NCBI RefSeq assembly: GCF_021228235.1
Contig: NZ_JAJQRG010000007.1
Span: forward strand, 124,001-188,000
Length of the DNA: 64,000 nucleotides
Source of the DNA: Pseudophaeobacter flagellatus
Lineage (GTDB): Bacteria; Pseudomonadota; Alphaproteobacteria; Rhodobacterales; Rhodobacteraceae
Direction: 5' to 3'
The notes under the pieces are model-generated. The model did not search any database, was not told where the DNA came from, and saw only the letters and a list, made by a program, of their open reading frames with translations. This document shows positions 8,798 to 47,381 of this stretch, piece after piece. Position 1 is the first letter of the stretch; each line of letters starts with the position of its first letter. The translations under genes and the position numbers were made by a program.

Positions 8798-8874
8798 TGG
8801 CGCGGTTGACGGGGCTCGAACCCGCGACCCCCGGCGTGACAGGCCGGTACTCTAACCAGCTGAGCTACAACCGC
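8798..8874 (-). tRNA. tRNA-Asp (anticodon GTC), copy 1
   Basis: 77 nt including encoded CCA. The acceptor stem GCGGTTG/CAACCGC, the D arm, the anticodon stem CCGGC/GCCGG with loop CTGTCAC (anticodon GTC) and a TTCGA T-loop are all present. It is the most downstream of three identical copies. Confidence 0.97.
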
Positions 8875-8916
8875 GCATCTATGCCTTTTCAGGCGGCCCA
8901 AAGGGCATAAGGAAAG

Positions 8917-8993
8917 TGGCGCGGTTGACGGGGCTCGAACCCGCGACCCCCGGCGTGACAGGCCGGTACTCTAACCAGCTGAGCTACAACCGC
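8917..8993 (-). tRNA. tRNA-Asp (anticodon GTC), copy 2
   Basis: Identical in sequence to copy 1, including the 3' CCA. It is separated from copy 1 by 42 bp and from copy 3 by 80 bp, and is probably co-transcribed with them. Confidence 0.97.
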
Positions 8994-9073
8994 GCATTTT
9001 CCTTCTTCTGTGGCTTGCGCCACATTCCCCATCCGGAGCGGGATTTGATATGCCCAAATCAGACAGGCAGCAG

Positions 9074-9150
9074 TGGCGCGGTTGACGGGGCTCGAACCCG
9101 CGACCCCCGGCGTGACAGGCCGGTACTCTAACCAGCTGAGCTACAACCGC
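9074..9150 (-). tRNA. tRNA-Asp (anticodon GTC), copy 3
   Basis: Third identical copy and the first to be transcribed. The unrelated spacers on either side show that the genes, not one long segment, are what is conserved. Confidence 0.97.
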
Positions 9151-10698: not shown

Positions 10699-10758
10699 GG
10701 AAGGTTTCGCAGATCAGCCCCAACCCCGAAGTTAATCATATTTAACAAGGGGGTTGTA

Positions 10759-10804
10759 TGGTGGGTGATGAGAGGCTCGAACTCCCGACATCTTCGGTGT
10801 AAAC
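10759..10804. repeat. Left attachment site: 46-bp copy of the tRNA-Val 3' part
   Basis: 46 bp identical to 47306-47351, covering the 3' CCA, acceptor 3' strand, T arm, variable loop and anticodon stem-loop of tRNA-Val (minus strand). It is cut off inside the anticodon arm, so it is not a working tRNA. As a direct repeat of the intact tRNA next to the integrase, it marks the far end of the element. Confidence 0.9.
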
Positions 10805-11226
10805 AACACGCACCTCGCTCAAGCCATTGATTTCAGGCAAGGGAAGCGCTTTTTATTAATGAGTTTTTCACCACCTACGCAAGATAGATGGGTTCCGCCC
10901 GGTTCACGGAACCTATGAACACTTCGTTATAGAACCCAGATGACTGCACCCAGCCCGAAGTGGTCATTGGATTGAGCCACTTACTTCTTTGTCTCGTGTT
11001 GACCGCATGTCGGGAACAGTTTTTTTTGCTGCCATCGTTGCAGTCAAGACAGTAAGTCCGTTGAACTAGCGAGGTTGATTTTTTGTCAGACCTTGAGGGC
11101 TTTGTTCGAGTTCCAGTTTATGCCAATCGATAGACACTTGATCTGTGCCCTGCAGCCATCCATCTTCCCGCCAGCTCGTTGTGCAGGACTGCAACTTTGG
11201 GCTCATGGTGATTGGGGAGTTTCATT
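10805..11226. other. Non-coding stretch next to the left att site
   Basis: About 420 bp with no supported gene on either strand. It is the first DNA inside the element and could hold attachment arm sites, but I see no clear repeats. Confidence 0.5.
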
Positions 11227-13652: not shown

Positions 13653-14564
13653 ATGGATAAAATGGAATGGGCGGTTTGGGGCCTCGAATACCTGCAAAGG
13701 GCTCGCTTGGCGATCCATGACGATTTCAATGCAGCGATGGAAGAGCTGAGAGGCTACCACACTTCTCACCGTGAAAGCTGGTACAGTAGTTGCAAGAATA
13801 TCATTTCCACTCTCTACCACAGATCAGCTGAGATCACGGCATCTACTCAAATCCCCAACGAGGAGTTCGCTTCACCTGATTCCTTCGAGTCTGAATTAGT
13901 GAACTACCGGGCCTGGCTCTTGGGTATGGCTGAGGAGCTCAAACAAGAATCGGAAAATTATAGGCGAAGTAATGATGTCGATGGTGCGCCCTTCTTAGTC
14001 GACGTTGCCAATCGGCATGTGCATAACATCCTCGCGGCTGTCGACTACGTTCTAGAAAAGCAACCGGCAGAAATCCCGAACGTGATCAGTCCGGAGACGG
14101 CGGATCTAAATCTCATTGTGGGACTTGCGCGCCGGTTCCACGAGGCAGCTTTAAGCCTAAATCACCATCCTCACAATGGAACCACCTTGGAGATCAAAAA
14201 CGAATGGGATTGCCAATACCTGTTCCGATCAATCCTAGCTGCATATGTACCCGACATTCGCGATGAAGAATGGAGTTCCTCCGTCGCGGGTTCGTCAGCG
14301 CGGTGCGAGTTCTTTCTCAAATCATTGCGAGCAATGATCGAATTGAAATTCGCGCGCAAACCTACAGACGCAAAGAAAATTAAGGGGGAACTTGCAGTAG
14401 ACTTCCTCGACTACGGTGGCAACGATGAAGTTGACCGTGTTATCTGCCTTATTTACGATCCGGCGTGTACGCTAAAGAATCCCGCTGCGATACAGTCTGA
14501 CCTCTCCGGCCCTAAGACTGGCCTTGAGCGTGTCGATGTTGTGATTTCTCCGCCACGTTCATAA
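13653..14564 (+). CDS. DpnII/MboI-type PD-(D/E)XK nuclease domain protein
   Basis: 303 residues. Residues 1-165 are mostly helical and unrecognised. From about 178 to 275 the sequence follows the DpnII-MboI restriction-endonuclease-like domain: NEWDCQYLFRSIL, DIRDEEWSSSVAGSSARCEFFL, MIELKFARKP, and ICLIYDPACTLKNP. The likely catalytic core is E219, E230 and K232 (E-x-K); the first acid is Glu rather than the usual Asp. There is no partner methylase or specificity gene beside it. It is probably a stand-alone nuclease effector, perhaps of abortive infection; that role is inferred. Confidence 0.65.
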   Translation: MDKMEWAVWGLEYLQRARLAIHDDFNAAMEELRGYHTSHRESWYSSCKNIISTLYHRSAEITASTQIPNEEFASPDSFESELVNYRAWLLGMAEELKQESENYRRSNDVDGAPFLVDVANRHVHNILAAVDYVLEKQPAEIPNVISPETADLNLIVGLARRFHEAALSLNHHPHNGTTLEIKNEWDCQYLFRSILAAYVPDIRDEEWSSSVAGSSARCEFFLKSLRAMIELKFARKPTDAKKIKGELAVDFLDYGGNDEVDRVICLIYDPACTLKNPAAIQSDLSGPKTGLERVDVVISPPRS

Positions 14565-17068: not shown

Positions 17069-17209
17069 ATGCTGCTGCTCGTGATCGCACTGGTGGCGTG
17101 TTCTCCGGTAACCGGAGACCGGAAACCAGCACGTTATGCACGAGGCCTGATATACGGCATTAGCGGAGCGTCGGGGTCGAAGTGCAACCTATGGATTATT
17201 CCATATTGA
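17069..17209 (+). CDS. Possible 46-residue lipoprotein
   Basis: A short frame starts MLLLVIALVACS, a compact signal with a lipobox-like LVAC, followed by a short polar tail. It overlaps the 3' end of the convergent SIR2-like gene by 14 bases. There is no clear ribosome site, so it may be chance. Confidence 0.3.
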   Translation: MLLLVIALVACSPVTGDRKPARYARGLIYGISGASGSKCNLWIIPY

Positions 17210-18572
17210 GCTCATAGGACTCGCCCGCGTGAAGTTTTCTAAGGACTACTAGCATATCCGGTGAATACTTATGGAACGTGGACGTGTTAACCTGCTCGGC
17301 TCGATGGTAGCGGTTGTCACTCGCCTTAATATCGACACCAGTCTCCTCTTTGATTTTTCGCAACAGGGAAACGGCCAGGTAGGATCCCGTACCTCCGAGG
17401 TGGCGTGTGAGTTGTGTAGCACTCAGCGGATACTGCGCCGATGCGGCGCTATAGTCACCAATATTCGCAATGCCGAATAGTTTCGCAAAGCTGTCTGAAT
17501 CCGACACTGCCTGATCTAGCATCTGGAAGTCGGCCTCCACCGTCATTGTTGGAATATCATGCCGGACCATGTTATAAGACCGTGCGATCAGTGATCTCAG
17601 AACTCGAGGGTTCACATCGTTTAGGACAGGGTTCGCCGCGAACGCGTTAAATACCCACGTGAAATCAGAAGCTTCAATTAGCTTTACGCGGACACTCCGG
17701 CCTTCGCTCGTTGGTATTACTTTTTCTCTGGCCGGGTTGGCTTCCTGATCGATCGTATCATTCCACTCTAAGATGTATACGTTTGGGATCACCCCCCCTT
17801 TCACAGGCAGAGCCTCATCTATATCCGAAAGAATTGATTGGATATTCGGATCCGACGCGCTATATCCAATGAAAATAAGAGGATGTTCATTGAAGAAAGT
17901 AAGCAACTTCGCGCTTAGAAATTTCTTTTTCTTTGAAAACTCATCGTAATCCGTCTGAGTGAAAACAATGCTTTCATGATCCTCGATGGACCCATGGATC
18001 TTATAAATTTCGCCCACCGATAGTTGCAAGCCTTTCAGAAGCTGCTGACCGACTATCGGTTCATGGTTCGGAAACACTAACTCCAACATCTGATCATAGT
18101 TCGTAGTAATGACGGCGTGTGGTTTTATCCGGCAAAGGGCGTCAATCTCCGCTCGTTGATCCGCACTGCCAAGATCTGAAGCCGCGGCAGGCGTTAGGTT
18201 TCGCAGATGGCTCGCAACTTTGAATTTCAAGTAGGCTTGAGCATCCACGCCGTCTGCGAACATTTCCGACGGAAACTCATTGCTTCCTGCGTCCCACGCC
18301 CATTCCTGATAAAGGCGAGCAAACTCTTCACCAATCTTCATCGGTGATTTCAGAGACTGCCGATAGAAGCCGAGTCCCTTGTCTATTGCAGAGCATTGAT
18401 CCGCCAGATGTGCGAGCAACTCGTCCCAGCTCGGCGCGCTCATATAGCGTCTCGACAAGCCTGAGCCGATAAAAAGGATAGGCTGACACCCCATCGTTTT
18501 TACCGTCTCGGTTATGTCTTCACTTATTTCCTCAACATAACGCTCAAATTTTGTCGTCTGCTCGCCGCTCAT
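17196..18572 (-). CDS. SIR2-like domain protein (candidate anti-phage NADase)
   Basis: 458 residues. The SIR2_2-type NAD-binding motifs are all visible: FIGSGLSRR (36-40), VITTNYDQML (N158, D160), YKIHGSIEDH (H193) and FIGYSASDPNIQ (S238/D241). Proteins of this type often deplete NAD+ on phage infection. Residues from about 300 to 458 hold no domain I can name; the last ~70 (PLSATQLTRHLGGTG...) could be a small helical, winged-helix-like module. The start ATG follows GGGGGGTG. It is a single-gene transcript in the cargo zone next to the phage Dam gene. Defence function is inferred from the family. Confidence 0.75.
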   Translation of the reverse strand: MSGEQTTKFERYVEEISEDITETVKTMGCQPILFIGSGLSRRYMSAPSWDELLAHLADQCSAIDKGLGFYRQSLKSPMKIGEEFARLYQEWAWDAGSNEFPSEMFADGVDAQAYLKFKVASHLRNLTPAAASDLGSADQRAEIDALCRIKPHAVITTNYDQMLELVFPNHEPIVGQQLLKGLQLSVGEIYKIHGSIEDHESIVFTQTDYDEFSKKKKFLSAKLLTFFNEHPLIFIGYSASDPNIQSILSDIDEALPVKGGVIPNVYILEWNDTIDQEANPAREKVIPTSEGRSVRVKLIEASDFTWVFNAFAANPVLNDVNPRVLRSLIARSYNMVRHDIPTMTVEADFQMLDQAVSDSDSFAKLFGIANIGDYSAASAQYPLSATQLTRHLGGTGSYLAVSLLRKIKEETGVDIKASDNRYHRAEQVNTSTFHKYSPDMLVVLRKLHAGESYELNME

Positions 18573-18977: not shown

Positions 18978-19793
18978 TCAAATCAAGCCGATACGCGGCT
19001 CAAAGTTGGATACGATCAGTTCCGCCGCCTCTGTCGCACCGCCTGCGGCAACGGTGTATTTCAACCGGACCTCTTCAAATTCAAACCCGGCGAACAGCTC
19101 ACGGATCTCGGGGCGGTCATTGATTGACAGGATGAACTTGCCACGGATTTCGGCCAGCTGTTCGGCCATGGCCTGGAAGGCGCTGCGCTCAAACAGGCCT
19201 TTGCCATAATCACTTTCACCGCCCCAATAGGGCGGATCGAGGTAGAACAGCGTCTTACTGCCATCATAGCGGCGGATCAAATCCGACCAGTCGAGGTTCT
19301 CAAAGATGACGCTTTCCAGCCGTTCATGGGCGGCCTCAAGAATTGGCTCCAGGCGCGACAGGCTGAACCTGGATGGCCGATCGGTGGCCACGCCAAAGAC
19401 ACCGCCGAGCTTGCCACCAAAGGCCTGGCGCTGCAGATACAAAAACCGGGCCGCGCGCTGCAGGTCGGTCAGGGTGGCGGGGTCGGTTTTGCGCAACCGC
19501 TCGAACTCCCGGCGCGAGGCGATCTGATAGCGCATCACCTCCATCAGCTGCGGCAAATGCTGCTGCAGAATGCGGAACAGATTGGTAATTTCACCATTGA
19601 AGTCATTGGCAACCTCGCACTGCGGCTTCCAGCTGCGGCGCAGAAAAACACCGCCCATGCCGACAAAAGGTTCGGCATAGGTGGCATGGTCGATGGCCTC
19701 GATGCGCGCGATGATGCGGGCACTCAGGGCCTTTTTGCCCCCAAGCCAGGGGGCGACGGGCGCGGCAGGGCGCACCTTTATCATTGTTGTCAT
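18978..19793 (-). CDS. Phage DNA adenine methylase (D12 class)
   Basis: 271-residue N6-adenine methyltransferase. It has the N-terminal PWLGGKK motif, the SAM-binding EPFVGMGGVFL, and the catalytic DPPY at residues 186-189 (LFYLDPPYWGG). Dam-type enzymes of this class methylate GATC or related sites, which may protect phage DNA or time packaging. It is the last gene of the leftward phage transcript, 147 bp after the lysis cassette. A downstream ATG nine bases later is a possible second start. Confidence 0.88.
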   Translation of the reverse strand: MTTMIKVRPAAPVAPWLGGKKALSARIIARIEAIDHATYAEPFVGMGGVFLRRSWKPQCEVANDFNGEITNLFRILQQHLPQLMEVMRYQIASRREFERLRKTDPATLTDLQRAARFLYLQRQAFGGKLGGVFGVATDRPSRFSLSRLEPILEAAHERLESVIFENLDWSDLIRRYDGSKTLFYLDPPYWGGESDYGKGLFERSAFQAMAEQLAEIRGKFILSINDRPEIRELFAGFEFEEVRLKYTVAAGGATEAAELIVSNFEPRIGLI

Positions 19794-26315: not shown

Positions 26316-26968
26316 CTGTTCAGAACCTCACGAAAATTCAGTTTGATCTGGGCAGAGCGCGTGACCCCATAGCTGGGCCGCCCCATCCCATCCTCGATCG
26401 CTTCAAACAGGCCCATGCCCGTCAGCAGAACAGGATCACCCGCCGCCATGGCACCGCGCAGGGGCATCTGGATACCCAGATCAAAGACACCTGCCGAGGC
26501 CTGCTGCACCCAGGTAACCACGAAGGGCCAAAGCTCATGGCTCATGATCTGACCAACACGCGGCGCAGCCTCTGCCTCTATTCGGATTTGCTCTGCCCCG
26601 GCCTCTGCCGCCTGCGCCGCAAAGCCCAGAGGTTCAGCCGCAAACCCCGTTCCAGAGGCAAAGCTGGATCCATCCGCAAAAGGCAGATCCATATCCGCCC
26701 CCGCGTCAAACCCGATCGGGTCCACCATGGGCAGCCGATAGACGCCCACCCGCCCCTGTGCCGTCGCCCGGATCCCGCGCCACTGCGCCAGCGCCGCGCC
26801 CTCCAGAAACACCGATGGCGCGCCAACCCAGCGCGGGAACCGGTTGAACACCACCGCAGAGCCGCCGCCGGTGTTTTCCCCCAGCCCCTGGCCGCGCCAG
26901 TCGATATCCCAATCAACCTGCAAGAATTTGAGAAAGCCCGCAGGCAGGGTCACAATAGGGCGCTGCAT
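26312..26968 (-). CDS. Phage tail protein, distal tail-like
   Basis: 218 residues, beta-rich, following the tape measure gene directly as distal tail proteins do. A tryptophan-rich N-terminus (FLQVDWDIDWRGQGLGEN) and an alanine-rich middle are visible. No catalytic motif. Assignment by gene order. Confidence 0.55.
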   Translation of the reverse strand: MQRPIVTLPAGFLKFLQVDWDIDWRGQGLGENTGGGSAVVFNRFPRWVGAPSVFLEGAALAQWRGIRATAQGRVGVYRLPMVDPIGFDAGADMDLPFADGSSFASGTGFAAEPLGFAAQAAEAGAEQIRIEAEAAPRVGQIMSHELWPFVVTWVQQASAGVFDLGIQMPLRGAMAAGDPVLLTGMGLFEAIEDGMGRPSYGVTRSAQIKLNFREVLNR

Positions 26969-28959
26969 CAGCCTTTCCTCGCCAAATGAGTTGCCAGATT
27001 GCTGGAGGTTTTACGATCCTGCATCGCCATGCCCGCCGCCACATGCTGTGCCGAGACATTGCCGCTGACGCTCTGAATCAAGGGCACCAGATACCCACTG
27101 TCATCAACACCAACACTGACATGCAAAGAGTTCTGCGCCGCCCCCAGCATCGACCTGGTGGCCTGCGCAGTATTCACCTGCGCACCGCGCGGCAGGTTGA
27201 CCAGTTCCGGCCCCCGCTCCCCCACCAATGCCAAACCACCCGGCGCAGACAGGGTGCCATTGGCAAAGCCAAGAACGCCTGAAAGCCCATCAAAGGCATT
27301 TCCGAACAGGGAATTGAATGCGCTATTCGCCAGCGCTGTCGCCAGGCTGGACAGCATTTCGCCCAAAGCTTCCTTAGCGCTCTTGGCACCCGTCACCAGC
27401 CCCGCAAAGGCAGACTTGGCCGAGGATTTCACAGACTGCAGGCCCTCGGAAAGCTTTTCCGTTTCATCTTTCGCCTTACGCACCCCACCAGTTGCGCCGC
27501 CGCCGAGATTACCAAGGGCGTCGCCTAGACGATCGGCTGCCGTGGTGCCGTCTTCTGTTTCCTCATTGTTGGCCCGGATCGCAGCGCGCAATGCTTCCAT
27601 ACTGGACAGAGGCCGCTTTGCAGCCTGAGCTAAAGCATCAGCACGGGCCTGCGCCGACGCAGCAGAACCAAAATACCCTTCAGCAGCATCCCCTGAATCC
27701 ATGGATGCATACCGGGCCTTCAGTGTCGCACCCACAAGGCCTTCATATACAGGCGTAAATCCCGGCAGTTCTTTGACGGTCTCCGCCAGCCCCCGCAGAA
27801 ATGAAGCCCATTTATTCTGCAACACCTGCAGCATCGTCAAAAAACCACCGGAAATGCCGTCCCAAGTTGCACCAAGGGAAGCGCCAAGAGAGGAGGCCCC
27901 AAGGGACATGCGATCCCATAGCTCTGAAGCAACATCCTTCAGAAGTTTAAGCGCCTCGCCAAAACCACCGGCACCAGAGACCATCCGCGAGAACTGATAG
28001 ACCAATTCCCCTGCCCCCACGATCAAGGCCCCAATGCCCGTGCGGATCAACGCCCCGCGCAAAAACACCATCGACCCTGCCAAGGTTGCTGTGGCCACTT
28101 TTGCCGCAACCAGGGCCGCCACATAGCGCACCCCAAAGCCAGTGACCGCCACCGCAAGATAAGTGGTCAGCCGCTGCACATTCGAGGCCAGCCCGTCCAG
28201 CCCCCCCCGCAGCGCCCCACCTGCGCGCAGACTGTTGGTTATCCCCAGAGCCATCTGCCCAAGGGCTGGCACCACCTCCAGCGCCAGCCGCTGACCCAGG
28301 TATTGCGTCACCAGACCCAGCCGCGCGATGCGATCATTGGCCTGCTCGATTTGACCCGCATCAACAGAGCTGACCGCAAGGCCATAGTCCTCGATGTCGC
28401 GCCGCGCCGAGCGGATCACATCACCGCCGTTCAGCATCAGCAGAACCATTTCCCGATTCCGCACACCAAGGTCGCGCAGGATTGAGCTGGTCTCGCCAGT
28501 GCTCAGCCCCAGCGCTTTGACCCGATCGGCAATAAGCGCCAGCTTTTCATCAGCATCAGCGCCCGACAGCTGCTGCGCCGAAATCCCCAGCGCGTCCAAT
28601 GCCCGCTTCGCATTGCCGGATTTCCCGATCGAGGCAATCTCGCGGTCAACGGTCTGGATGTCATTGGTCATGCTCGACAGACTTACGCCCGCCTCGCCCG
28701 CCGCTAGTTCCAAAGCCCGGAAACCGCCGATCGACGCACCCAGGCGCCGGGCAGACTTTGCCGCCCTGTCCAGATCCCGCGCCCCCGCCAAAGCCATGGC
28801 CGAGATCGCACCCCCGGCAGCCGCAGCAACCGCCGCCACCGCGAGGAATTGTTTCTTCATCTGGGCCAGCGGTGATTTCACCCGCTTTGCCCCGCGTTCA
28901 AACTTGGCGCTGTTCAGCCCCAGATTGACCCGCAGCGCACCAATAACAGATTGTCCCAT
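26968..28959 (-). CDS. Tail tape measure protein
   Basis: 663 residues from the ATG at 28959 (MGQSVIGALRVNLGLNSAKF). It has a long helical N-terminal region, hydrophobic segments near 35-60 and 290-340, and a C-terminal alanine-rich end typical of lambda-type tape measure proteins (GLVTGAKSAKEALGEMLSSLA, then FANGTLSAPGGLALVGERGPE). Its length predicts a tail of about 100 nm if the usual ~1.5 angstrom per residue holds. The start codon overlaps the stop of the second tail chaperone. Confidence 0.85.
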   Translation of the reverse strand: MGQSVIGALRVNLGLNSAKFERGAKRVKSPLAQMKKQFLAVAAVAAAAGGAISAMALAGARDLDRAAKSARRLGASIGGFRALELAAGEAGVSLSSMTNDIQTVDREIASIGKSGNAKRALDALGISAQQLSGADADEKLALIADRVKALGLSTGETSSILRDLGVRNREMVLLMLNGGDVIRSARRDIEDYGLAVSSVDAGQIEQANDRIARLGLVTQYLGQRLALEVVPALGQMALGITNSLRAGGALRGGLDGLASNVQRLTTYLAVAVTGFGVRYVAALVAAKVATATLAGSMVFLRGALIRTGIGALIVGAGELVYQFSRMVSGAGGFGEALKLLKDVASELWDRMSLGASSLGASLGATWDGISGGFLTMLQVLQNKWASFLRGLAETVKELPGFTPVYEGLVGATLKARYASMDSGDAAEGYFGSAASAQARADALAQAAKRPLSSMEALRAAIRANNEETEDGTTAADRLGDALGNLGGGATGGVRKAKDETEKLSEGLQSVKSSAKSAFAGLVTGAKSAKEALGEMLSSLATALANSAFNSLFGNAFDGLSGVLGFANGTLSAPGGLALVGERGPELVNLPRGAQVNTAQATRSMLGAAQNSLHVSVGVDDSGYLVPLIQSVSGNVSAQHVAAGMAMQDRKTSSNLATHLARKG

Positions 28960-29249
28960 CAGCTTTCCTTTGCCCCCCAGGATACCGCCAGGGTTTCGCA
29001 CATCGCCTGCAGGGTCTCAGGCGATTGAGGTTCAACAGGGCCAGCGCCCGCAAATTCAGAGAAACTCGGCAGCGCATCCATTCGGCTCAGCGCCGCGACA
29101 TGCCAGACCTGCCAGGCGCGATCCTTGTGCTCGCGCTCCAACCGCTGCGCAGCCCCCTTCATCAGGGACAGATACAGCCGAGGTGTCAGAGACCAGAAGG
29201 CCGCCGGATCCGGGAACCCAGCGGCCACATAGGCCTCCAACATTTTCAT
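28959..29249 (-). CDS. Tail assembly chaperone T part (DUF2376/TAC-like)
   Basis: 96 residues as a separate frame (FPDPAAFWSLTPRLYLSLMKGAAQRL), resembling the small protein between tail chaperone and tape measure in Rhodobacterales phages and gene transfer agents. It is probably made mainly as a -1 frameshift fusion with the upstream chaperone, because the frame is open back to the slippery site at 29294-29300. The ATG at 29249 lies 5 bases after the upstream stop, so independent translation is also possible. Confidence 0.7.
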   Translation of the reverse strand: MKMLEAYVAAGFPDPAAFWSLTPRLYLSLMKGAAQRLEREHKDRAWQVWHVAALSRMDALPSFSEFAGAGPVEPQSPETLQAMCETLAVSWGAKES

Positions 29250-29254
29250 GTAGC

Positions 29255-29608
29255 TTATCCCGGCTTGGTCTCCGGGGCCGCCAGCGCCTGACCGTTTCCC
29301 AACTCTGCGGCCTCACCTGCAGTTGGCATGGATGCCGCAATCAGCCGCTCCACCACACCTATGTCATGGCTCAGCACATCGCCCGCATCGCACAATGTGG
29401 CGTCAGGATGATGGCGCAGCAGACAGGCGCGCACCAGGTGCCGCAGATCCAGCACAGAGACATCGCCCTGTTCAGCCGCCTCAAAAGCCGTCATGGCATC
29501 CTTGCCGGTGGCCTCTTCAAACGCGGCCATCGCGTTAAAGTCGCAGCGCAGGGTCCAGTTGTTGCCATCTGCCTGGGCAGTGGTCTCACCCATGAAACGA
29601 TTGGCCAT
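29255..29608 (-). CDS. Tail assembly chaperone G part (GTA-family)
   Basis: 117 residues: ETTAQADGNNWTLRCDFNAMAAFEEATGKDAM resembles the gene-transfer-agent/TAC family that binds the tape measure during tail assembly. The end of the gene (codons 103-105) contains the heptamer GGGAAAC in the phase G-GGA-AAC, 39 bases before the stop. Slippage there would yield a 216-residue G-T fusion. Confidence 0.75.
   Translation of the reverse strand: MANRFMGETTAQADGNNWTLRCDFNAMAAFEEATGKDAMTAFEAAEQGDVSVLDLRHLVRACLLRHHPDATLCDAGDVLSHDIGVVERLIAASMPTAGEAAELGNGQALAAPETKPG
29294..29300 (-). other. Putative programmed -1 ribosomal frameshift site (GGGAAAC)
   Basis: The heptamer reads X-XXY-YYZ in the zero frame (TTG GGA AAC). 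After a -1 slip the frame is open through 15 codons to the ATG of the next gene and on to its stop. Lambda uses GGGAAAG at the same place between G and T. Confidence 0.7.
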
Positions 29609-30027
29609 TATACCACCGCCAGAACTGGCTTGCCGCTGGGCTTCACCGTCAGCGTTGCCGACATCTTGTCATTGGTCAGCTCGCCAAATTCCAACCCGGT
29701 GATCACCGCATTGAAGGTGAGCGTTGTGGTCACATCTGGGAAGGTGATCTGGCACCATTTGGTCCCTGCCTCAAACGCTGCATCCAGCGTGGCCGCAACC
29801 GATGGCGCAAAGTTCAGGCCGATCTTGGCCTCGCTGCCATCCTTCATGCCAGCCATAAATTCCTTGTAGCGATCGGGGCTTTTAAGGTGGGTCTTATCCA
29901 CTGCATCCCGCGACTTGCTTGGCGGGGTAATACTGACCACCCCGGCGATTGCCGGAAACGGCCCCGCCTTGACTTCCGCCATTCCAAACGTGGAATTATA
30001 TCCGATATCTGCATCTACCTCAGGCAT
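29608..30027 (-). CDS. Phage tail tube (major tail) protein
   Basis: 139 residues, beta-rich, with YNSTFGMAEV at the start and an IAGVVSITPPSKSRDAVDKTHL segment of the type seen in siphophage tail tube proteins (the SRDAVDKTH loop). Position after the DUF3168 protein and before the chaperones is canonical. Confidence 0.75.
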   Translation of the reverse strand: MPEVDADIGYNSTFGMAEVKAGPFPAIAGVVSITPPSKSRDAVDKTHLKSPDRYKEFMAGMKDGSEAKIGLNFAPSVAATLDAAFEAGTKWCQITFPDVTTTLTFNAVITGLEFGELTNDKMSATLTVKPSGKPVLAVV

Positions 30028-46062: not shown

Positions 46063-46335
46063 ATGAAACCATTCACGCCGGAAATGCTTGCAGATCGGTG
46101 GGGCGTCAGTGCCACCACCGTTCGCAACATGTGCATGGACGGGAGCCTTCAGCATTTTCGCTTGGGCCGTCTATACCGAATACCAGCCTATACCGTAGAG
46201 GAAATTGAGAAATGCCAGACATCAGCATCGGAAGGTTCAGAGGCGGCTTTTGCGTCTATTGGCGCGAAGACGGAAAACGGCGCCGCTATCAGCTTGAGGC
46301 ACGCACCCGAGCGCAGGCCGAGCCAGAGGCAATAG
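46063..46335 (+). CDS. Excisionase-like helix-turn-helix protein
   Basis: 90 residues. FTPEMLADRWGVSATTVRNMCMDGSLQHFRLGRLYRIPAYTVEEIEKC is a MerR-like/excisionase winged helix-turn-helix. GGAGGA lies just before the ATG. Its 3' end overlaps the integrase start by 124 bases in another frame, a typical xis-int arrangement. Probably directs excision. Confidence 0.75.
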   Translation: MKPFTPEMLADRWGVSATTVRNMCMDGSLQHFRLGRLYRIPAYTVEEIEKCQTSASEGSEAAFASIGAKTENGAAISLRHAPERRPSQRQ

Positions 46336-47219
46336 ACGTCTACCGCCGGGAGACCCTCTCGCAGCAACAGGACAATTCCACTGTGTCAGACATATGGGAG
46401 GCCTACCGGCGCGACCTGGGCAACAAACCCACCGCAAAAACGATGGGCTACACCGGCAAGGCCGTACTGGAGCACTTTGGCGCTTACCGCCCAGACCAAA
46501 TCACCACCGCCCTATGCCGATCTTATGTGACCAAGCGGACCGACACCGGCAAGTCACAGGGCACGGTTCACACAGAGCTAGGCCACTTGCGCAGCGCCAT
46601 GCGCTTTGCAGTCAAAGAACGGATCATTGAGCGCGCACCAGAGATCGAGCGACCAGCAAAGCCGACACCAAAAGAGCGATATCTAGAGAAGACTGAGATC
46701 TCGGCTCTCATTAACGCCGCGTCCGCCCCACACATCAAACTAGCAATTCACCTGCTGTTTGCGACCGCAGGACGCATTGGAGCAATTTTGGATTTGACCT
46801 GGGACCGAGTAGATCTTGAACGGGGCATTGTTAATCTGCGCCTTGAAGACGCGAAGACCCGCAAGGGCCGCGCGATTGTACCGATGAATGACGGGATCCG
46901 CGCAGCACTGCAGACCGCCCACCATGCCGCCTTGAGCGACTACGTGGTCGAATATGCAGGTGGGCAAGTGAAAAATATTCGCAAGGGATTTGAGGCGGCT
47001 TGTGCGAGGGCCAGACTGGAAAACGTAACACTCCACACGATCCGCCATTCCAGTGCTGTAGCCATGGTTTCAAATGGAGTTCCGCTGGAAAAGGTTGCCC
47101 AATACCTCGGGCATTCCAACGTGGCGATCACCTATCAAACCTACGCTAGATTTGCACCGGACCACCTGCAAGATGCTGCAGAAATTCTGGATTTCACTCA
47201 AGTACGACAAGTCAGGTGA
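46212..47219 (+). CDS. Tyrosine integrase of the element
   Basis: 335 residues. An N-terminal arm-binding region and a SAM-like core-binding domain (about 55-145) precede the catalytic domain. The catalytic residues are R188 (TAGRIGAIL), K near 215-218 (EDAKTRKGR), H275 and R278 (LHTIRH), H301 (LGHSN) and the nucleophile Y311 (QTYARF). It sits 86 bp from the tRNA-Val gene used as attachment site and is homologous to the decayed copy at 10430-10698. Confidence 0.93.
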   Translation: MPDISIGRFRGGFCVYWREDGKRRRYQLEARTRAQAEPEAIDVYRRETLSQQQDNSTVSDIWEAYRRDLGNKPTAKTMGYTGKAVLEHFGAYRPDQITTALCRSYVTKRTDTGKSQGTVHTELGHLRSAMRFAVKERIIERAPEIERPAKPTPKERYLEKTEISALINAASAPHIKLAIHLLFATAGRIGAILDLTWDRVDLERGIVNLRLEDAKTRKGRAIVPMNDGIRAALQTAHHAALSDYVVEYAGGQVKNIRKGFEAACARARLENVTLHTIRHSSAVAMVSNGVPLEKVAQYLGHSNVAITYQTYARFAPDHLQDAAEILDFTQVRQVR

Positions 47220-47305
47220 TATCGAGTTAGGTTCAAAGAACCAAGGAACACTTTGTACAAGTGACCCAGATCCCCGCAGGGAACCATAATTTAAAAGTGG
47301 TTGGA

Positions 47306-47381
<76 letters not shown>

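Follow-up and report, generated by a model that had tools for sequence, protein, structure and literature searches.

Probable programmed ribosomal frameshifting in the tail chaperone genes of a Pseudophaeobacter prophage, with a slip site that differs among relatives

Between the tail tube gene and the tape measure gene of a siphovirus-type prophage lie two small genes, and the question they raise is how the second is made: as a protein in its own right, or as an extension of the first by ribosomes that change frame on the way. The DNA comes from Pseudophaeobacter flagellatus (assembly GCF_021228235.1, contig NZ_JAJQRG010000007.1, positions 124,001–188,000 of the forward strand), and we refer to this whole stretch of 64,000 nt as the window, using its own numbering throughout. 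The sequence points, with a high degree of confidence, to expression of the pair by a −1 programmed ribosomal frameshift of the lambda G/GT type. The genes are read from the minus strand in the order tube protein, gene 1 (TAC_11), gene 2 and tape measure protein, with both chaperone reading frames between the major tail protein and tape measure genes, as that type has them. The features are the following.

29608..30027, minus strand: major tail (tube) protein gene, Phage_TTP_12 (E 2.1e-14), directly upstream of gene 1
29255..29608, minus strand: gene 1, putative tail assembly chaperone of the Phage_TAC_11/GTA-gp10 family, 117 aa (PF11836; phrog_2115, tail protein)
29313..29315, minus strand: upstream stop codon bounding the open −1 frame
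29294..29300, minus strand: slippery heptamer G_GGA_AAC in slip phase (from the sequence; kept in relatives)
28959..29294, minus strand: −1 frame extension, 111 residues after re-reading of base 29294 (from the reading frame)
28959..29249, minus strand: gene 2 under conventional annotation, 96 aa from the ATG at 29249, putative T-like second domain (phrog_19318, E 8e-21)
26968..28959, minus strand: tape measure protein gene (phrog_8462, E 6.1e-60), directly downstream

The PF11836 match of gene 1 is barely above threshold (28.2 bits against a cut-off of 27.8), and the same family is matched by 7/7 members of group A1. For gene 2, the match to PF09550 (Phage_TAC_6) stays below the cut-off (16.2 versus 23.4 bits), and 11 of the 15 members of group A2 match that family, at E values of up to 0.1; the protein is predicted to be helical, and its best predicted-fold match is an unnamed protein. 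In its predicted fold, gene 1 resembles viral proteins of likewise predicted structure, several of them named tail assembly chaperones, and fold and sequence searches of the PDB with gene 1 matched no solved structure and yielded nothing usable. Its AlphaFold2 model (pLDDT 82.3) is confident to about residue 95 and of low confidence over residues 97–111; on this model, the slip site falls in a seemingly flexible tail.

A preliminary description of the locus had placed the heptamer GGGAAAC, at 29300–29294, exactly in slip phase. Base 29300 is indeed the third position of a codon, and the site reads TTG GGA AAC, that is, nnG_GGA_AAC in the X_XXY_YYZ phase, over codons 103–105 of the 117 in gene 1. 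Upstream of the re-read base, the −1 frame continues without a stop for just 18 nt, to 29312, so that the heptamer comes early in the usable −1 stretch. From there, the same description had the frame run for 15 codons without a stop to the gene 2 ATG and on to 28959, giving a 216-residue fusion that ends just before the tape measure gene. Reading of the frames bears this out: 111 codons without a stop, ended by the stop codon at 28961–28959, follow the 105 zero-frame residues (to N105), starting with CGG TCA, and add up to a predicted fusion of 216 residues, whose stop codon overlaps the tape measure ATG in a TGATG. Every number in that description that could be checked was right. The junction peptide of the predicted fusion would read ...ELGN-RSGAGG..., with ...AAELGN-R (tryptic) or SGAGGPGDQAGISYMK as diagnostic candidates.

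The slipping, its rate and the roles of the chaperones, as we infer them, would be these. Most ribosomes would complete gene 1 (117 aa), while a minority would slip by −1 with tRNA-Gly (GGA) in the P site and tRNA-Asn (AAC) in the A site of G_GGA_AAC; the slipped tRNAs would re-pair with GGG and AAA, and reading would continue through gene 2 to give the 216-residue G–T-type fusion. If lambda is a guide, the short form would coat the tape measure protein, the rare long form would recruit the tube protein, and the frequency of slipping would set the ratio of the two.

Assignment to the lambda G/GT type, also proposed in the preliminary description, is supported as to kind, though not to the last letter: the slip heptamer of lambda is GGGAAAG, and the window has C in place of the final G, so that the A-site tRNA here is that for Asn, which shifts less readily in E. 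coli (PMC4066793, in the portion available). Gene 1 is, moreover, a member of the GTA-gp10 (TAC_11) family, unlike lambda G, and ratio and function are carried over to it by analogy only. Lambda makes about 30 copies of gpG for every gpGT; the tape measure protein is bound by the G part and the tube protein by the T part (PMC5009743, available sections). G_GGA_AAC is a low-efficiency motif in Escherichia coli, yet one used by insertion sequences (PMC4066793, in the portion available), and such low efficiency would suit a low T-to-G ratio. Elsewhere, frameshifting rates of 6 and 7% are given for two HK97-like phage tail chaperone genes (PMC3711429, in part), and tail chaperone frameshifting is described as usual, and as likely absent in the R. 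capsulatus phage RcZahn, in the accessible text of PMC8601537.

Taken alone, the window carries the site only modestly beyond chance; its relatives carry it well beyond. The whole window holds 7 copies of GGGAAAC against 8.07 expected, an uninformative count, and in 20,000 whole-gene codon shuffles the last 55 nt of gene 1 contained an in-phase GGGAAAN in 0.7% of cases and any XXXYYYZ in 5.3%. Folding revealed no structure or pseudoknot downstream of the window site (z 0.05 to 0.23 versus shuffles); a downstream stimulator is not required by the definition of the XXXYYYZ class. A Shine–Dalgarno-like AGGTGA is seen by eye 12 nt upstream of the site. Synonymous conservation among four close relatives was set aside as support: an identical run of 7 codons spans the site, and it is only the second longest in gene 1, the longest being one of 8 at codons 58–65.

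Relatives were gathered with gene 2 as the sole criterion of similarity, which kept the site in gene 1 from influencing which loci were taken. This first set comprised 118 loci – 15 from genomes of the same family, the best 80 of 137 from IMG/VR, 22 from GTDB genomes, and the window. All but one of them, 117, have an assigned gene 1, and in 116 of the 117 gene 2 is in its −1 frame. Removal of near copies, which in this first de-duplication were recognised by comparing fixed positions, reduced the 117 to 73 loci, 72 of them in the −1 frame. Over this search and the second one described below, the loci dropped besides near copies were L227, L298 and L313 (no gene 1 assigned), L022 (contig ending at the junction) and L016 (closely resembling L014 from the same genome, with gene 1 in another frame).

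Conservation of the heptamer in homologues, which the preliminary description had named as a check, is what these loci display: GGGAAAN or AAAAAAN stands in slip phase in 52 of the 72 non-redundant loci, as opposed to 3 and 1 in the other two phases, and any XXXYYYZ in 60, as opposed to 9 and 4. In 500 codon-order shuffles of the 72 loci, which treat related loci as independent although the loci span many lineages, the strong class reached a mean of 3.9 and a maximum of 11, and any XXXYYYZ a mean of 17.3 and a maximum of 29. A gapped de-duplication gave much the same picture (strong heptamer in slip phase in 53 of 73, other phases 3 and 1, with 43 loci lacking a start codon for gene 2). At GGGAAA sites, the Gly codon is GGA in 46/46 cases, compared with 97 of 1013 Gly codons elsewhere (9.6%), and the codon before the site varies in amino acid (P 13, A 9, S 8, L 8, G 4, E 4, others) while ending in the repeated base. 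Phase, shuffles and codon choice in the relatives rule out a chance heptamer, and the comparison argues strongly that the slip site has been kept by selection.

Signals around the heptamer are weaker. Downstream folding in the heptamer group shows no consistent difference from its own three controls (p 0.0004, 0.20 and 0.16), and the Shine–Dalgarno-like signal exceeds that of synonymously resampled sequence by only a little (p 0.029; energy lower at 30 of 52 sites). In L123, L128, L137 and L223, GGGAAAG directly abuts the gene 1 stop codon. A second tRNA-Lys failed as an explanation for AAC over AAG: tRNA-Lys UUU was found in 12/12 genomes of the host genus and CUU in 0/12, with CUU present in 6/8 genomes of other families, by a pattern search that a diverged tRNA could escape.

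The relatives also bear on whether gene 2 is instead a separate protein, started at ATG 29249 through translational coupling, with the heptamer a coincidence or relic. The window does have that ATG, 6 nt after the gene 1 stop, and another two codons on, and gene transfer agents (GTAs) with a homologous first gene appear to be coupled, a start codon being present in 67 of 68 recognised gene 2s. Such coupling would nonetheless leave the heptamer's conservation at the nucleotide level, and in one phase, unaccounted for, and 42 of the 72 relatives – 25 of 52 among those with a strong heptamer – lack any ATG, GTG or TTG that could start gene 2 over the stretch examined, which ran from the site (or from 60 nt upstream of the match) to 18 nt into the gene 2 match. 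In L018 and L019, the two nearest IMG/VR relatives among the matches listed, ATC replaces the first ATG, and in the window itself only a weak GGGA, noted by eye, precedes the ATG as a possible ribosome-binding site. We therefore consider coupling alone highly improbable.

Frameshifting and a free gene 2 protein might, however, coexist in this phage, as distinct from its start-less relatives. The window's own gene 2 has an ATG, a start that could be used as well; a possible start exists in 30 of the 72 relatives, and the close group has starts in common, for example the M of ML..Y, although this recurring M may be simply a conserved residue of the domain. We hold this dual mode to be rather unlikely. 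A change of frame by slippage of RNA polymerase, not of the ribosome, seems exceedingly improbable: relatives of the C type, described below, use other motifs, so that the heptamer is not the sole route to the −1 frame, but the window site has no single-base run longer than 3, and the phase of the site relative to gene 1 codons is conserved, as only a codon-based event would require.

GTAs offer the contrast within the same family. PF11836 is found in 225 of 295 genomes of the family, and from these matches we sampled 70 GTA loci (L028–L057 and L314–L353), the best-scoring 30 plus 40 picked from the match list. In the last 118 nt of gene 1, GGGAAAN or AAAAAAN stood in slip phase in 0 of the 70 sampled Rhodobacterales GTA loci; some XXXYYYZ occurred in 5/70 and C_CCT, in the last 60 nt, in 1/70. 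Of the 68 loci among the 70 in which gene 2 was recognised, 51 have it in the −1 frame, 15 in the +1 frame and 2 in the same frame as gene 1; its start codon in the printed examples is mostly an ATG or GTG overlapping the gene 1 stop – an overlap of ATG and stop that accounts for the −1 majority. Judged by sequence, these loci look like coupled gene pairs without frameshifting. In RcGTA, with its genes g10 and g10.5 (= g10.1), and in other Rhodobacterales GTAs, gene 1 belongs to the same PF11836 and is followed by a small second gene of similar pattern; the sampled Rhodobacterales GTA loci differ from the window in having no slip heptamer, 67 of their 68 recognised second genes have a start codon, and the window, with its slip site and an ATG 6 nt after the stop, does not fit an RcGTA-type coupled pair. 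The GTA genes have been named tail chaperone 1 and 2 (PMC11409702, in the sections available), and the GTA tail consists of five tube hexamers (PMC7296036, likewise in part); perhaps such short tails, with less need for a tuned chaperone ratio, are the reason for the loss. The accessible portions of PMC11409702, PMC9765227 and PMC7296036 contain no mention of frameshifting that we could find.

Homologues without the heptamer had been named in the preliminary description as evidence that would tell against frameshifting. There are such loci, 20 of the 72 having neither GGGAAAN nor AAAAAAN, and we do not count them as a refutation; 16 of them carry an in-phase C_CCT at the same place (5 as AAACCCT, 2 as CCCTTTA). 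The remaining four have G_GAA_AAG (L014, L139) or GGGGGAA (L138, L221), the latter being the motif at about a thousand annotated actinophage sites (PMC10885494, as far as its available text goes).

As C_CCT had been noticed post hoc, it was tested on new loci from a second search seeded with ten such relatives, of which the best 80 of 169 were taken; the new loci are kin of the seeds, which makes this a test within the group and not across phages at large. The search added 76 new loci. Gene 1 could be assigned in 74 of them, and the −1 relation of gene 2 to gene 1 holds in 74/74, as in 116/117 of the first set; this is the outcome for the other counter-case raised beforehand, a stop in the −1 frame of homologues. 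Removing near copies left 31 of the 74, and 29 once L305 and L308, on contigs already in the first set, were excluded. These 29 new non-redundant loci (gapped de-duplication) have C_CCT in 26 cases, C_CCC in 2 and GGGAAAG in 1 (L245). C_CCT itself occurs in slip phase in 27 of the 29, with 0 and 0 in the other phases; in a wider stretch of the first set (n = 73), the corresponding counts are 17 versus 4 and 6. L245, in which GGGAAAG and AAACCCT are both in phase and 12 nt apart, falls among the C_CCT loci on the tree described below and may be an intermediate.

C_CCU is known to shift by −1 in E. coli when a stimulator is present, tetramers needing a strong one, and the E. coli hierarchy of tetramers runs A_AAG, U_UUC, U_UUU, C_CCU = C_CCC, A_AAA (PMC4066793, available part). 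Those tetramers, as far as the same part of the paper describes them, were in synthetic constructs, whereas here a natural gene family has C_CCU at the change of frame; the window lies outside this group. Relative to shuffled sequence, the 72 nt past C_CCT have a mean folding z of −1.54 (42 sites), 38% of sites being under −2. With loci taken as independent, the folding is stronger than in three control stretches from the same genes (p 0.003, 0.0007 and 0.000006) and, on the same assumption, stronger than in the corresponding stretch of the heptamer group (mean z −0.81, 54 sites; p 0.013). Before gapped de-duplication, each of positions 6–16 past the tetramer was base-paired, through pairs of various types, in 31 to 41 of the 44 minimum-energy folds, and long hairpins of differing arm sequence begin about 5 nt past C_CCT in L142, L244, L249, L252, L265, L267, L275, L276 and L287. 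Enriched structure after C_CCT is consistent with the need of tetramers for a strong stimulator (PMC4066793, in the part cited above). Simple local hairpins did not hold up as the full signal: a strict search for ungapped stems separated the tetramer from the heptamer group at only p 0.09, and the energy of the whole 72 nt was needed. The Shine–Dalgarno-like signal is also stronger in the C_CCT group (p 0.00006, loci taken as independent).

On a tree of 103 loci, the three motif labels require 9 changes by a quick method, against a mean of 37.0 for shuffled labels, and the starred branches force at least 2 changes for the C group; L014 is labelled C on this tree because an in-phase C_CCC was also counted there. 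On balance, we lean towards a reading whose parts we hold jointly: within one gene family the slip site was re-invented, from a two-tRNA heptamer (GGGAAAN, AAAAAAN) to the mainly one-tRNA tetramer C_CCU, aided by a stem beginning about 5 nt further on; the −1 relation of the two frames stayed fixed while the slip site changed; and the GTAs dropped frameshifting in favour of start–stop coupling. The step of loss in the GTAs and the direction of change are what we infer.

Annotated phages bring the gene pair into named records. Phage-record matches numbered 1 with gene 1 of the window, none with gene 1 of L021, 3 with gene 2 of L021 and 10 with gene 2 of L148. The Paracoccus phages Pthi1, Pben1 and Shpa, the Caulobacter phage Kronos and the Agrobacterium phage Rivra have the same gene pair in the same place, with in-phase GGGAAAC, GGGAAAG, AAAAAAG and CCCCCCG, within the overlap, in Pthi1, Pben1, Shpa and Kronos, respectively; Rivra has no XXXYYYZ and, by eye, an in-phase C_CCC. 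That the two frames are usually listed as separate genes, as had been supposed at the outset, is true of all five of these records (5/5), each of which has two separate hypothetical or structural genes and no join.

This kind of frameshift is already known, and novelty is low for the window; the pattern among its relatives is of more interest. A limited literature survey found no description of the C_CCU group or of slip-site loss in GTAs. If the reading holds, the annotation of the gene pair could be corrected across a large group of alphaproteobacterial phages, and one chaperone family would provide a natural experiment – with a heptamer, with C_CCU and structure, and, in the GTAs, with neither – in which one could ask what purpose the chaperone ratio serves and how frameshift signals are replaced without loss of function.

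As for the surroundings, a 65-nt direct repeat, 91% identical, occurs at 10747–10811 and 47294–47358, the second copy overlapping the end of a tRNA-Val gene (47306–47381), and a tyrosine integrase lies at 46212–47219; the repeats are likely to be the attachment sites of a prophage some 36.6 kb long, which includes the chaperone pair. Inside it, the gene at 17196–18572 has a SIR2-like domain (PF13289) and matches the PADLOC candidate defence family PDC-S25 (E 3.3e-77), a D12-class adenine DNA methyltransferase (18978–19793) lies between this gene and a lysozyme gene, and, near one end, 13653–14564 encodes a DpnII/MboI-type nuclease domain that matches the PADLOC Aga_Helical-REase models (E 2.8e-25). 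Outside the prophage, at 8798–9150, are three near-identical tandem tRNA-Asp genes.
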